The notes under the pieces: model-generated | The model's database searches: none | The model's input: only the letters and a program-made list of their open reading frames with translations | Told to the model about the DNA's origin: nothing | In this document: one piece after another, positions 2,489 to 42,659 of the stretch | Position numbering within the stretch: the stretch's first letter is position 1 | Layout: every line of letters starts with the position of its first letter | Position numbers and translations under genes: made by a program | Origin: Candidatus Pacearchaeota archaeon | Lineage (GTDB): Archaea > Nanobdellota > Nanobdellia > Pacearchaeales > GW2011-AR1 | Direction: 5' to 3' | Length of the DNA stretch: 49,815 nt | Assembly: GCA_018303855.1 (NCBI GenBank) | Contig: JAGVXI010000011.1 | Coordinates: 1 to 49,815, forward strand

Positions 2489-3341
2489 TTTTTAACTTAC
2501 TTTCCTCGTTTTGAGTATTGTCAGCTTTATTACTACCCTCGCTACCTGATACTTTATCCACATTTATATTAATTAAATTGCTTAAAGCTTTTTCATGACT
2601 ACTTGCCTTGCTAATCAAAAATTTAATTGTATCTTCATTAGCATACCCAATGCTAACTACAAATGCCAAAGCTCTGTTAAAGGCATATTTAAGCTCAGCA
2701 ATTGTGCCTTGGGGATCAATTTTGATATTAAGGTACATCTTTTCTTCTTTAGTATCAAAAGCTACCAGTGGTTCAAAGCCAACTGTAAAAGGCTTGATGT
2801 CAAGTTTATTCATAATGCCTGCAGCACCCTCGCTTATCTTTTCACCTTTTTTGGCTATCACCTTTGGTTTCCTGATGTGGATTTTTCCCTCTTTAATCTC
2901 TATTTGAATACCCAAACTTCCTAGTTCAGATATTGCAGGTCCAGGAACCAAATCAGTTGGACCAACTTCAATTTCAATATCTGTGGGAGCTTCTTGCCCG
3001 ATTTTTGCCTTTGCCGCAACTTTGTTTTTTACTAACTCTGTAGCAACATCAAAAGCATCCAAATCAGAAAAGATTATAGCAATATCGCCTGTAATCTGCT
3101 CTTTTAAATGCTTAATTGCCCCCTTTTCAATTTTTTCAATTGCCCTGAACATAATGCTTTTTTTAGGAACTTTAATTATAACTTTCCCTCGGAGTTTTTT
3201 TCTTATATCTTGAAACTGGCTGTCTGGCAAATTTTTTGTTGAAGCTATAAGAATGGTTCTTTTTGTGCTTGCTAGTTCCACTAATTCATCAACTGCCCTA
3301 GTTTTTTTCTTTGGAATTGGTTTTTCTCTTGTTTTATCCAT
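2469..3341 (-). CDS. rplP0: 50S ribosomal protein L10 (P0), short C-terminus
   Basis: PGPAISELGSLGIQIEIKEGKIHI...KPFTVGFEPLVAF; sits between L1 and L12. Confidence 0.92.
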   Translation of the reverse strand: MDKTREKPIPKKKTRAVDELVELASTKRTILIASTKNLPDSQFQDIRKKLRGKVIIKVPKKSIMFRAIEKIEKGAIKHLKEQITGDIAIIFSDLDAFDVATELVKNKVAAKAKIGQEAPTDIEIEVGPTDLVPGPAISELGSLGIQIEIKEGKIHIRKPKVIAKKGEKISEGAAGIMNKLDIKPFTVGFEPLVAFDTKEEKMYLNIKIDPQGTIAELKYAFNRALAFVVSIGYANEDTIKFLISKASSHEKALSNLININVDKVSGSEGSNKADNTQNEESKLKNGGENG

Positions 3342-37163: not shown

Positions 37164-38057
37164 TTAAAATGCTGGGCGTACCACGCACCCCCTTATAGCA
37201 AACCTGAATGTCTCTCCGGTTTTTTTGTGTTTAACTGTGTATATTGTGTCGCCATCTCCTGTTTTGAATTTGTCAAAATCAAATTCAGGATAAAATAATG
37301 TAAAGCCCTGTTGCTCAAAATTGCAAAATCTTGCTTCCTGGCTTAAAATTTCCTGAACAACAACTGCAATATCATAAAATCTGCTTAAAACATAAATTTT
37401 AAAGTTTTCATAATTTTTAACTTCCCCTACTCTTGTCAGCTTAACATTCCTGTTTATATCAATAAGGATTTTTTTAGGCATTAACTCAACATCAAATTTC
37501 ATGGCTCCCATTTCAATTTTATACCCCTGATCTTCAAGATTTTTCTTCATATCAATAAAAGCCTGTTCAACATCATTTTCAATGTCCTCCTTTAACTCCT
37601 GCTTTAAGTGTTCTATTAACACTGGTTCTTGGTTAATACAAGAGTAATAGTAATTCTGATTATAGCACAAATAAGCAACTCTTGTTCTATTAAATTCCCG
37701 CGATAAATTCGGGGTTATATACCCTCCATTAAAAGAAATAGTTTCAACAGACTTTCTGACAATTGGTTCAAGAGTAAAATCCAAATATCCTTGAGGGTCT
37801 TTTGGAATTTGCTGTTCAATCCCAGGAATTCTTGGAATTTGTTTTGTCCTTAAAAGAAAAAACAATAAGATTGTCCCAACAATCAATATTGCAACTATGA
37901 TAAATATGGTTGTTTGCGAGCGTTTTGACTTTACTAACTGTTTCTCACCTTTGATTAATCCAGAAGTCAAGGCGCGAGTTGAGCGTTTTGACTTTACTAA
38001 CTGTTTCTCACCTCTTATTAATCTAGAAGTCCGGGTGCGAGTTCCTCTTTTTTTCAT
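37164..38057 (-). CDS. pilin-like membrane protein (type A1)
   Basis: KRSQTTIFIIVAILIVGTILLFFLL; GDGDTIYTVKHKKTGETFRFAIR parallels GDGSKIYILTDRIKGDKFQFAVR in 32169-32999. Confidence 0.75.
   Translation of the reverse strand: MKKRGTRTRTSRLIRGEKQLVKSKRSTRALTSGLIKGEKQLVKSKRSQTTIFIIVAILIVGTILLFFLLRTKQIPRIPGIEQQIPKDPQGYLDFTLEPIVRKSVETISFNGGYITPNLSREFNRTRVAYLCYNQNYYYSCINQEPVLIEHLKQELKEDIENDVEQAFIDMKKNLEDQGYKIEMGAMKFDVELMPKKILIDINRNVKLTRVGEVKNYENFKIYVLSRFYDIAVVVQEILSQEARFCNFEQQGFTLFYPEFDFDKFKTGDGDTIYTVKHKKTGETFRFAIRGCVVRPAF
37918..38043 (-). repeat. 63-bp in-frame tandem duplication, 2 copies
   Basis: GAGCGTTTTGACTTTACTAACTGTTTCTCACCT...ATTAAT at 37918 and 37981. Confidence 0.9.
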
Positions 38058-39252: not shown

Positions 39253-40572
39253 ATGGAAAATAAGCAGGAAGAGAATAATAAAGAGGCTGAAAAATCTGAA
39301 AGAGAACAAAGAATCAGACAAATAACTCATCTTTATTATTCACGTCCAGAAATCCAAAAAGCGATTTTTGAATTTTCGCAACAAAGAGAAGTTGTTCCAA
39401 GATATTTTGAAGGGTTTGGCAAACGTCCAGACTCACTTCAATACCCAAGTGATGTTTTTGAGCTCGTGAAAAAAGGAGCAACATCTTTTCATTGTTCAGA
39501 AGAAATTTGGCAAGAACCATTGAAACTCTCAACAGAGTTGACAGAAGCCCAGTTTAATGAATTAAGAATTGGATGGGATTTGTTAATAGACATTGACTCA
39601 AAATATTTGGATTACAGCAAAATTGCAGCAGAGATTATAATAAAATTTTTGGAGTTTAATGGTGTGAAAAATATTGGATTGAAGTTCAGTGGTAGCAAAG
39701 GTTTTCATCTTATTGTTCCATTTAAAGCATTTCCTAAAGAAATAAATAATGTTCAAGCAAAAGATATGTTCCCAGAATGGCCAAGGATAATCTTAAAATA
39801 TATAATTGAAAAAATAAAACCCCATTTAATTGAGAAAGTAACAAAACTAATCTCTGAAAAGCAAAGTAAATATATCAAGGATTTTGATGCTTCAAAACAA
39901 GTTGTTCCAGACATAATACTGGTTTCTCCTAGGCATTTGTTCAGAATTCCATACTCTTTGCATGAAAAAACTGCTCTTGCCAGTGTTGTTATTGGTAAAA
40001 CTGAGATAAAAGATTTTCAGCCAAAAGATGCAGGCCCTTTAAAAGTTAAAATAAAAAACTTTCTGCCAGATTGTAAGCAAGGAGAAGCTTCCGAACTGCT
40101 GATGCAGGCTCTTGATTGGTATAGAGAAACAGGGCAATGGGATGAGCCTGCAACAATAACAGAATTTAAACCAGTAAAGCTTGCTAAGATTTCAAATGAA
40201 TTTTTCCCTCCAAGCATTCAGAAAATTCTGCAGGGTGTTGCTGATGGTAAAAAAAGGGCGCTGTTTATCCTGATAAATTTATTCCGCTCAATTGGCATGG
40301 AAAAAGAAGAGCTTGAAAAGAGAATTGAAGATTGGAACAATAAAAATCAAATGCCATTAAAAAATGGTTATATTAAATCTCAGCTGTCTTGGAGTTATAG
40401 AAATAAAATTGTACCACCTCCAAATTTTGACAAAGATTATTATGCCGGTATTGGAATAATTCCAACCCAAGAAGAAAAGAGATACAAAAACCCGATTAAT
40501 TATGTTATCAAGAAAGCTCTTCAACTTAGTAACCCAGATAATCCTGTAGAGAAGCATAAACCTGAAGTCTAG
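39253..40572 (+). CDS. priS: DNA primase small-subunit-type protein with C-terminal PriL-CTD-like region
   Basis: LLIDIDSKYLDYSK, GLKFSGSKGFHLIVPF, VSPRHLFRIPYSLHEKT; C-terminal extension. Confidence 0.88.
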   Translation: MENKQEENNKEAEKSEREQRIRQITHLYYSRPEIQKAIFEFSQQREVVPRYFEGFGKRPDSLQYPSDVFELVKKGATSFHCSEEIWQEPLKLSTELTEAQFNELRIGWDLLIDIDSKYLDYSKIAAEIIIKFLEFNGVKNIGLKFSGSKGFHLIVPFKAFPKEINNVQAKDMFPEWPRIILKYIIEKIKPHLIEKVTKLISEKQSKYIKDFDASKQVVPDIILVSPRHLFRIPYSLHEKTALASVVIGKTEIKDFQPKDAGPLKVKIKNFLPDCKQGEASELLMQALDWYRETGQWDEPATITEFKPVKLAKISNEFFPPSIQKILQGVADGKKRALFILINLFRSIGMEKEELEKRIEDWNNKNQMPLKNGYIKSQLSWSYRNKIVPPPNFDKDYYAGIGIIPTQEEKRYKNPINYVIKKALQLSNPDNPVEKHKPEV

Positions 40573-40786
40573 AAATTTTTTTGTATGTGCCTTAATTTCT
40601 TAGCTTTAAAATTTGCATCCAAATATGACAAATTTTAAAACATCAAAAATTTCTCGAATGTCCTGAATTTTTGTGGGCTTAAAATTTGCATCCAAATATG
40701 ACAAATTTTAAAACATAGAAATTTCTTATGTAATCCCTTAATTTCTTGGCTTTAAAATTTGCATCCAAATATGACAAATTTTAAAA
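40571..40786. repeat. three-unit 73-bp tandem hairpin array
   Basis: TTAAAATTTGCATCCAAATATGACAAATTTTAAAA core starts at 40606, 40679 and 40752; alternates with a second inverted repeat. Confidence 0.93.
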
Positions 40787-40808
40787 AGAACAAATAATTC
40801 AATCTAAT

Positions 40809-42659
40809 ATGCAAAAAGGGGTATTGATTGGAATTTTCGTGATATGTTTAGTCCTAACAATCTCTTTTATCAGTGCAGCCGAGAATATAACCTCTGTTGA
40901 TGATAATTCTGAACAAGCAAAAGTTAATAAGGCGTATAATTGGTTAGAAGACAAAGTTGAAGGTAACTGCGGAAGTTTAAGCATAGACCAGCAAATTTTT
41001 TCTTTGCTTGCATTATCTTATAATTCTAATATTAAATCAGAGTGCAGAGGCAAACTTGTCCAGGAAACTAATCAACAATGCTGGCCAAAAGGGAGTTGTA
41101 ATATTAAAACAACTGCCCAGGCTATTCTTGCTTTAAACAAAGCAGGCGATGATACGGAAAAAGCAGAAGAGTGGCTTCTTTCTCAAAACAAAACTCCGAC
41201 AGATTTAATATGGTATTTGGAAATTGACAGCAATGAAGCAACTACATGCAATATTAAATCTGGTGCCGGTCAAGGATATGCAATAAATATAGATTCAGAA
41301 AAAAAGTTAAGCGGAAATGCAGGAGGTTGCTTAACTTTAGAGCCTCATGGATACTGGCTAAGAGTTGCATCAAGCTGTTATGACAAGGAATTTGAAATTA
41401 GTTGCGATAAAGGATTTTTAACAACTTTGCTTTATTCAAGACAAGGTTCTAGCACAATTTATGTTTCTGAAACTGTTCATGAGGGAAGTGCAGGTGATAC
41501 TACCAAAGAAAAAATTGAGTCATTTTGCTTTAAACAAGGAGGCAACTGCAATTATGAAGGAAGCCTGTGGGCTGCAAATGTTTTAAGTTATTTAGGGAGA
41601 GATGTTTCATCATTCCTTCCTTATTTGATTGCTGCATCAGAAGATACTGAAAATAAAAAATATCTGCCAGATTCTTTCTTGTATTCTTTAACAGGACAGC
41701 AGGAATTTTATATTAAACTGCTAAATAAACAAAAGGACAAGCACTGGGATGAATCAGGTGAAGAGTTTTATGATACCCCTGTTGCAATGCTTTCTTTATA
41801 TGGGGGGGAAGACTCTAGAATAACAGATGCTAAGAATTGGTTATTAGACAAGCAAGATAAAGACGGAAGCTGGAGAGCTAATATAAGAAATACAGCATTC
41901 ATTCTTGCAGCTGTTTGGCCAAAAGTAGCAGACACTTTTGACGACGGAGATCCAGATGACTGCATTTCTTCAAATCTTTATTGTGTTCCTCAAACAGAAT
42001 GTGATGAAGCCCAAGGCAATGTTTTAAATGCTTATGAATGCGCAGGATTAAAAGTTTGTTGTGACAAGCAAAAAACCATCGACACATGCGCAGTTCAAGG
42101 GGGGGCAAAGTGTGATTCTTCTACTCATAAATGTTCTTATGGTGGAAGCACAGTTGAAGCATCAGACATTACATCAGGGCAAATATGTTGTGTTGGCGGG
42201 ACCTGTGAAGAAAAAGAACCAGAAATAACTGCAACTTGTACATCAGATATTGGAACCTGCAGAATAACTTCTTGCCGTGACGACGAAGAAGAAAAATCGT
42301 CATACACCTGCCAGTATGAAACAGATAAATGTTGTGCACAAAAGCAAGAACCTCCTAAAAACTGGTTATGGATTTGGATATTTTTAGCATTAATTGTTTT
42401 AGTAATAATCGGAATTATTTTCAGGGATAAATTAAGAGAAGTCTGGTTTAAAACAAAATCAAGATTTGGTGGCAAAAAAGGAGGAGTACAGCCTCCAAGG
42501 GGAATGCCTCCAACACTAATGCCTCCAGGAGCAAGACTAATGCCAAGGAGAATATTGCCCCCAGGTGCTGTGCGCCCTATAATGAGGCCAATACCTAGCA
42601 GAAAACCAGAAAGCGAGATGGAAGAAGTTCTTAAAAAACTAAAAGCCATGGGAAAATAG
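40809..42659 (+). CDS. surface protein with prenyltransferase/terpenoid-cyclase-like alpha-alpha repeats, Cys-rich region and C-terminal TM
   Basis: Signal peptide; TTAQAILALNKAGDDTEKAEEWLLSQ, DAKNWLLDKQDKDGSWRANIRNTAFILAAV; TM then Pro-rich tail. Confidence 0.68.
   Translation: MQKGVLIGIFVICLVLTISFISAAENITSVDDNSEQAKVNKAYNWLEDKVEGNCGSLSIDQQIFSLLALSYNSNIKSECRGKLVQETNQQCWPKGSCNIKTTAQAILALNKAGDDTEKAEEWLLSQNKTPTDLIWYLEIDSNEATTCNIKSGAGQGYAINIDSEKKLSGNAGGCLTLEPHGYWLRVASSCYDKEFEISCDKGFLTTLLYSRQGSSTIYVSETVHEGSAGDTTKEKIESFCFKQGGNCNYEGSLWAANVLSYLGRDVSSFLPYLIAASEDTENKKYLPDSFLYSLTGQQEFYIKLLNKQKDKHWDESGEEFYDTPVAMLSLYGGEDSRITDAKNWLLDKQDKDGSWRANIRNTAFILAAVWPKVADTFDDGDPDDCISSNLYCVPQTECDEAQGNVLNAYECAGLKVCCDKQKTIDTCAVQGGAKCDSSTHKCSYGGSTVEASDITSGQICCVGGTCEEKEPEITATCTSDIGTCRITSCRDDEEEKSSYTCQYETDKCCAQKQEPPKNWLWIWIFLALIVLVIIGIIFRDKLREVWFKTKSRFGGKKGGVQPPRGMPPTLMPPGARLMPRRILPPGAVRPIMRPIPSRKPESEMEEVLKKLKAMGK

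Follow-up and report, generated by a model that had tools for sequence, protein, structure and literature searches.

A probable mobile two-hairpin element in tandem in the promoter downstream of priS in a Pacearchaeota genome

The priS locus and its hairpin array

The window, i.e. the whole stretch of 49,815 nucleotides analysed here, corresponds to contig C13 of an archaeal genome of 860 kb in 16 contigs. Within it, priS, which encodes the small subunit of DNA primase, is followed by the gene of a 616-aa secreted or membrane protein to which no Pfam family could be matched. The gene order PCNA-priS-616-aa gene is kept in many relatives. The region between the two latter genes harbours an array of hairpins, the extent of which is based on the TRF period, the exact cores and matches to the covariance model R1 introduced below:

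39253..40572, + strand: priS, DNA primase small subunit (PF01896), upstream gene
40571..40789, + strand: tandem array of three 73-bp twin-hairpin units
40571..40600, + strand: unit 1, first hairpin, subtype b (AG-AAATT/AATTT-CT..GGC-like), stem arms AGAAATT/AATTTCT at 40571-40577/40594-40600
40606..40638, + strand: unit 1, second hairpin (TTAAAATTTG/CAAATTTTAA), exact core copy 1
40644..40673, + strand: unit 2, first hairpin, subtype a (CAAAAATT/AATTTTTG, then TGGGC), stem arms at 40644-40651/40666-40673, fitting the family consensus
40679..40711, + strand: unit 2, second hairpin, exact core copy 2
40717..40746, + strand: unit 3, first hairpin, subtype b (AGAAATT/AATTTCT, then TGGC), stem arms at 40717-40723/40740-40746
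40752..40784, + strand: unit 3, second hairpin, exact core copy 3
40779..40785, + strand: TTTTAAA forming the last hairpin's 3' arm; located 23 nt ahead of the downstream ATG, it is the probable TATA box of the 616-aa gene
40809..42659, + strand: 616-aa secreted/membrane protein, downstream gene with the array in its promoter

TRF assigns a period of 73 bp and 2.7 copies to the array, and the 33-bp core TTAAAATTTGCATCCAAATATGACAAATTTTAA recurs without any exchange at 40606, 40679 and 40752 (expectation 0 from 100 shuffles). The matches of model R1 cover 40563-40644, 40636-40717 and 40709-40790. A preceding sequence-only reading had recognised the 73-bp period with its identical core, the spacer stems AGAAATT/AATTTCT, CAAAAATT/AATTTTTG and AGAAATT/AATTTCT, as well as the overlap of the first stem, starting at 40571, with the priS stop codon TAG at 40570-40572, all of which is confirmed here. 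The left edge of the array, GAAGTC|TAGAAATT, lies inside this stop codon and shows no TTTAAA; the exact 231-bp array occurs a single time in the genome. While the core halves are identical between the units, the spacer halves match at 17-27 of 36 positions only. As these intervening 36 bp represent homologous hairpins rather than unrelated spacers, a CRISPR array was rejected. The presence of identical cores next to differing first hairpins (p = 0.002 for units 1 and 3) is predicted neither by simple tandem duplication nor by independent insertion and possibly results from selection for the core sequence or from conversion among the units.

The same reading had deduced selection on folding from compensatory changes among the spacer stems. 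Within the array, such changes amount to one true pair (G-C to A-T) and one mismatch replaced by C-G, and to no more than that. In part, they coincide with the difference between two subtypes of the first hairpin which occur across the whole family described below, and the invariant cores provide no evidence in either direction.

That three tandem units adjoin priS and PCNA could point to an iteron-like or replication-origin array tied to these genes. Relatives sharing the order of PCNA, priS and the downstream gene, however, mostly lack the element, which is present in single copies ahead of many other genes. Moreover, since the loops range from 0 to about 17 nt, the unit is unsuited as a fixed-spacing dimer site or iteron, and we consider an origin array most improbable.

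Three further observations concern this neighbourhood. In a number of relatives (G006, G008-G010, G018-G020, G022, G023, G026-G029, G031, G032) priS yields a two-piece match around residue 200-215 within one longer open frame of ~510-590 aa, which, judged from sequence, suggests a segment inserted within the primase small subunit. In G024, belonging to another genus, the intergenic region downstream of priS (L004, ~2860-3010) carries an element of another kind, bounded by long terminal inverted repeats (AGGCTTCATCCCAAATT...AATATGGGATGAAGCCT), which argues that this promoter region has been struck repeatedly. Finally, a 63-bp tandem duplication (90% match) at 37918-38043 of the window affects the 5' end of a 297-aa ORF on the minus strand (37164-38057) and doubles its basic N-terminal peptide.

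A dispersed family with covarying stems

A BLAST search with the array against 185 genomes of the same family returned weak matches confined to one genus. Read by eye, these have the junction motifs of the array unit in common, namely ACATC ahead of the first hairpin, GTGGC separating the two hairpins and a terminal AATTTTTAAA; their loops differ. A pattern search, accompanied by a reversed control and by reading of the context, led to 16 family members with the consensus C-AT(CAAAAATC-loop-GATTTTTG)TGGC(TTAAAAATT-loop-AATTTTTAA)A. Among these 16 is a single unit elsewhere in the genome of the window (C12:7507-7582), ahead of the gene of a zinc-ribbon/HTH protein which, from its sequence, we take to resemble aMBF1.

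Alignment A1 of the members shows 93% pairing. Ten of the 17 pairs exhibit two-sided change, and the 17 cells with such change compare with a mean of 4.0 after shuffling, slid controls giving 0-3. The stems of the family thus covary while its loops vary freely (0 to ~17 nt). Conserved folding is thereby supported, and by a much larger set of sequences than the initial reading had at its disposal; the compensatory changes could stem from hairpin-templated repair instead of selection.

Covariance model R1 detects members in 32 of the 185 family genomes, the highest counts being found in one genus (14 in G166, the maximum, and 10 in G106). The copies within one genome all differ from each other, unlike those of a recent burst. 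A strict pattern applied to 85,488 species, each represented by one genome, retrieved 17 loci, all of them in Pacearchaeota/Nanoarchaeota MAGs, and none in viral contigs. As far as these sequences tell, the element has so far been found only in this group of tiny archaea. The exact core did not match any contig of IMG/VR or GTDB, which is due to the loops differing between copies. The objection that the core may be a common dispersed repeat, raised already in the initial reading, therefore applies by half: while the core in its exact form is unique, its element family is a dispersed one.

Larger copies (L175, L176, L188) consist of four hairpins arranged as CATC-H1-GTGGTC-Ha-AGGACCAG-Hb-CTTGGC-H2. 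Twin units accordingly are of two sorts, H1-TGGC-H2 or Hb-CTTGGC-H2. Units 1 and 3 of the window belong to the latter and unit 2 to the former, the two spacer-stem versions of the array corresponding to the two family-wide subtypes of the first hairpin.

Insertion at TATA boxes

In the genome of the window, TTTAAA is located 21 nt (31 genes) or 23 nt (50 genes) before the ATG, considering 567 upstream regions, and hardly elsewhere. In archaeal promoters a motif at this spacing is the TATA box of leaderless genes, and TTTAAA is the TATA box in this genome. The terminal TTTAAA of the element is situated 21-24 nt before an ATG in 11 loci, among them the window with 23 nt. With the TATA box thus provided by the element's own end, transcripts of the downstream gene, at least where mRNAs are leaderless, probably start beyond most of the element.

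We compared filled and empty orthologous promoters among 20 genomes of one genus of relatives, different from that of the window. Insertion precisely after the TATA box, TTTAAA^[C...TTTAAA], is observed at four genes, with a second independent insertion at rps17e. The sister genomes G166 and G183 differ at the gene of a type II/IV-secretion-type ATPase, the proteins being 90% identical: the empty site of G166, AAGTTTTAAATAGTCG, has the junction AAGTTTTAAA^TAGTCG, while G183 contains, between AAGTTTTAAA and TAGTCG, a 106-bp four-hairpin version ending GGAATTTTTAAA. At rps17e, G183 is empty (ATATTTAAAAACCTTAAAAATAAG, junction ATATTTAAAAA^CCTTAAAAATAAG) while G166 is filled by 54 bp; in the MAG STD1_118 this gene was independently filled at the same base, the empty form being present in G191. 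STD1_118 is also filled at the UMP kinase gene, of which the empty form CAATCTTTAAATAAA (junction CAATCTTTAAA^TAAA) is found in at least five genomes. The 109-aa gene downstream of rps17e, finally, is filled in G166 and empty in G183. All pairs are in agreement with the junction [..TTTAAA or ..TAAAAA] ^ C...TTTAAA. The TATA sequence flanking the element on its left changes with the target (TTTAAA, TTTATAAA, TTTACAAA), while the TTTAAA on the right covaries with the 5' arm of its hairpin, from which it follows that the former is target DNA and the latter encoded by the element.

Not every copy occupies a promoter in this manner. In G166, the element at the proteasome beta gene follows the conserved CTTTATAAACCC promoter and is inserted at another TTTTTAAA, probably within the 5' UTR, which indicates that the target sequence matters and not the promoter position alone. 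The placement at TATA boxes (11 of 62 elements) is only modestly more frequent than the 12% expected from intergenic TTTAAA sites alone (P = 0.12); the target may simply be TTTAAA, combined with selection against coding insertions. As a side observation, the neighbourhood of rps17e contains twin-hairpin elements in four genomes (L156 in G166:C57, L215 in STD1_118, L189 in G183:C60, L166 in G172:C4) and, from their differing positions and orientations, resembles a hotspot of insertion.

A structured RNA or RNA-processing element, such as a small RNA or a 5' leader switch, would be in line with the covarying twin hairpins and with the location in a probable 5' UTR at some loci (as at the proteasome beta gene of G166). 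In 11 loci, however, the terminal TTTAAA serves as TATA box of a gene that is probably leaderless, which places the element upstream of the transcript. Rfam, searched with the window, identifies two tRNAs only and does not match the array. Furthermore, the first hairpin of L169 is loopless (CAAAAATTTTTG), which is possible for a DNA palindrome but not for an RNA hairpin of such length. An RNA function therefore appears very unlikely to us.

Somewhat less remote, though still improbable, is a promoter-proximal regulatory structure kept by the host, in which the hairpins adjoining the TATA box control downstream transcription, either extruded from the DNA or serving as binding sites. Elements within 60 nt of a gene face the downstream gene in 22 cases and point away in about 7 (22/29), the last arm coincides with the TATA box, the stems are kept via compensatory change, and the promoter between priS and the 600/616-aa gene carries the element in two genera. 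On the other hand, no common theme links the downstream genes, which serve housekeeping or membrane functions (proteasome, rps17e, UMP kinase, Mre11, UppP, ProRS), for which reason a regulon was rejected. In addition, the presence of the element is patchy between sister genomes, its loops differ widely in length and some copies reside in a 5' UTR or elsewhere, as at the proteasome beta gene. A regulatory role of the promoter element that is acquired after insertion may exist beside mobility. The repeat RNA, iteron-like site or RNA-processing element proposed in the sequence-only reading are not borne out, as the unit proves to be a dispersed insertion element found at many promoters in many genomes.

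We therefore consider it probable that the 73-bp unit is a non-autonomous mobile two-hairpin element which inserts at TATA boxes and rebuilds them, and that the window contains three of them in tandem. As seen in the relatives, insertion takes place on the 3' side of the TATA-box sequence TTTAAA. Because the element carries at its end a TTTAAA of its own, representing the 3' arm of its second hairpin, the spacing between TATA box and gene start would be preserved. The three units of the window, which occupy the promoter of the 616-aa gene in head-to-tail orientation, would have accumulated by tandem duplication or by successive insertions, each into the TTTAAA supplied by an earlier copy. We infer that this array arose by the same insertion route as the copies of the relatives.

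Mode of transposition and related systems

The element has no terminal inverted repeats (TIR), a hairpin at each tip, one-sided insertion at a short target and a target-like sequence at its other end. By analogy, this layout would work like single-strand (HUH-type) transposition or like REPINs. Transposition presumably reads a folded single strand, and the enzyme moving the element would be encoded elsewhere. A Y1 transposase (PF01797) is absent from the genome of the window. Y1 transposases exceed the cut-off in ~73-74 of the 185 family genomes but are not linked to the element; their presence in 11 of 14 genomes with at least three model matches, compared to 74 of 185 overall, is confounded with genome size. 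The ends of Y1 insertion sequences in relatives are unlike the element (12 loci inspected by eye and 28 by model, with only weak matches of 23-26 bits). Missing linkage and unlike ends speak against a Y1 transposase as carrier; an enzyme of another kind is as likely. No transposase was found beside a larger repeat in G179 which duplicates an element together with its flanks. In draft MAGs, longer and autonomous copies may go unnoticed where contigs end.

Among known systems, the REPINs or REP-BIMEs of bacteria, which are mobilised by RAYT (PMC3116915, PMC2817692), resemble the element in being short, non-coding, intergenic, dispersed and non-autonomous, in their two adjacent hairpins, in possible tandem or mosaic arrays and in a fold that is kept as the sequence drifts. 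The element, in contrast, lacks the GTAG/CGTC tag at the hairpin foot, with C-AT and TGGC as consensus junctions instead, its hairpins are not oriented as inverted copies, and it inserts by the TATA box. It is also far lower in copy number, AT-rich, archaeal (DPANN) and without a linked RAYT gene. With the ends of IS200/IS605 elements (Y1/HUH, single-strand transposition) it shares the absence of terminal inverted repeats and of a clear target-site duplication (TSD), a hairpin near each end, insertion 3' of a short fixed target, as seen at the TTTAAA^ junctions of the filled/empty pairs, and an end carrying target-like sequence. Its hairpins, however, reach the very tips, an internal transposase is absent, guide sequences are not recognisable, and its ends are unlike those of the sampled Y1 elements of the same genomes. 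Classical MITEs are likewise small, non-coding, multi-copy and inserted between genes, but the ends CATC... and ...AATTTTTAAA of the element are not inverted copies, there is no DDE-type TIR, and a fixed TSD independent of the target motif is missing. DPANN groups do not appear in a survey covering bacterial and archaeal REPs (PMC12306157), and in the open-access literature searched no comparable element is described from Pacearchaeota or DPANN archaea.

The family thus adds a mobile element to a major symbiotic archaeal group in which small repeats have hardly been described. It suggests a way for a genetic parasite to enter promoters without silencing genes, namely by bringing along its own TATA box. 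As its sequence drifts while its folds are kept, it is naturally suited as a data set from which to derive the structural rules governing its mobility, and it could mark promoters whose output was tuned by insertion. More tentatively, the element might represent a DPANN-specific mobile class in which a novel enzyme recognises the hairpins in their folded, single-stranded form and directs insertion to the TATA box itself, possibly via TBP, a working TATA box being regenerated from the element's own end. If true, such a class would be the archaeal counterpart, in its logic, to promoter-targeting retroelements.

Two minor observations concern the contig ends of the genome. Contigs C2-C5, C9-C12 and C15 exhibit two shared end sequences, CAGACTTTGAAAGAGC...GGATGTCAC and TAGAAACCAGCCC...GCTTTAA, which resemble the two termini of a multi-copy IS200/IS605-like element, the assembly lacking its body. 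In addition, positions 1-98 of the window and the 5' ends of C1, C5, C9 and C11 (L037, L049, L044, L045) belong to a dispersed repeat of ~270 bp composed of several TCAAG...CTTGA hairpins; the contig of the window begins inside this repeat, and several contigs break there. It matches the twin-hairpin model weakly (~28 bits) and may be a distant cousin of the twin-hairpin element.
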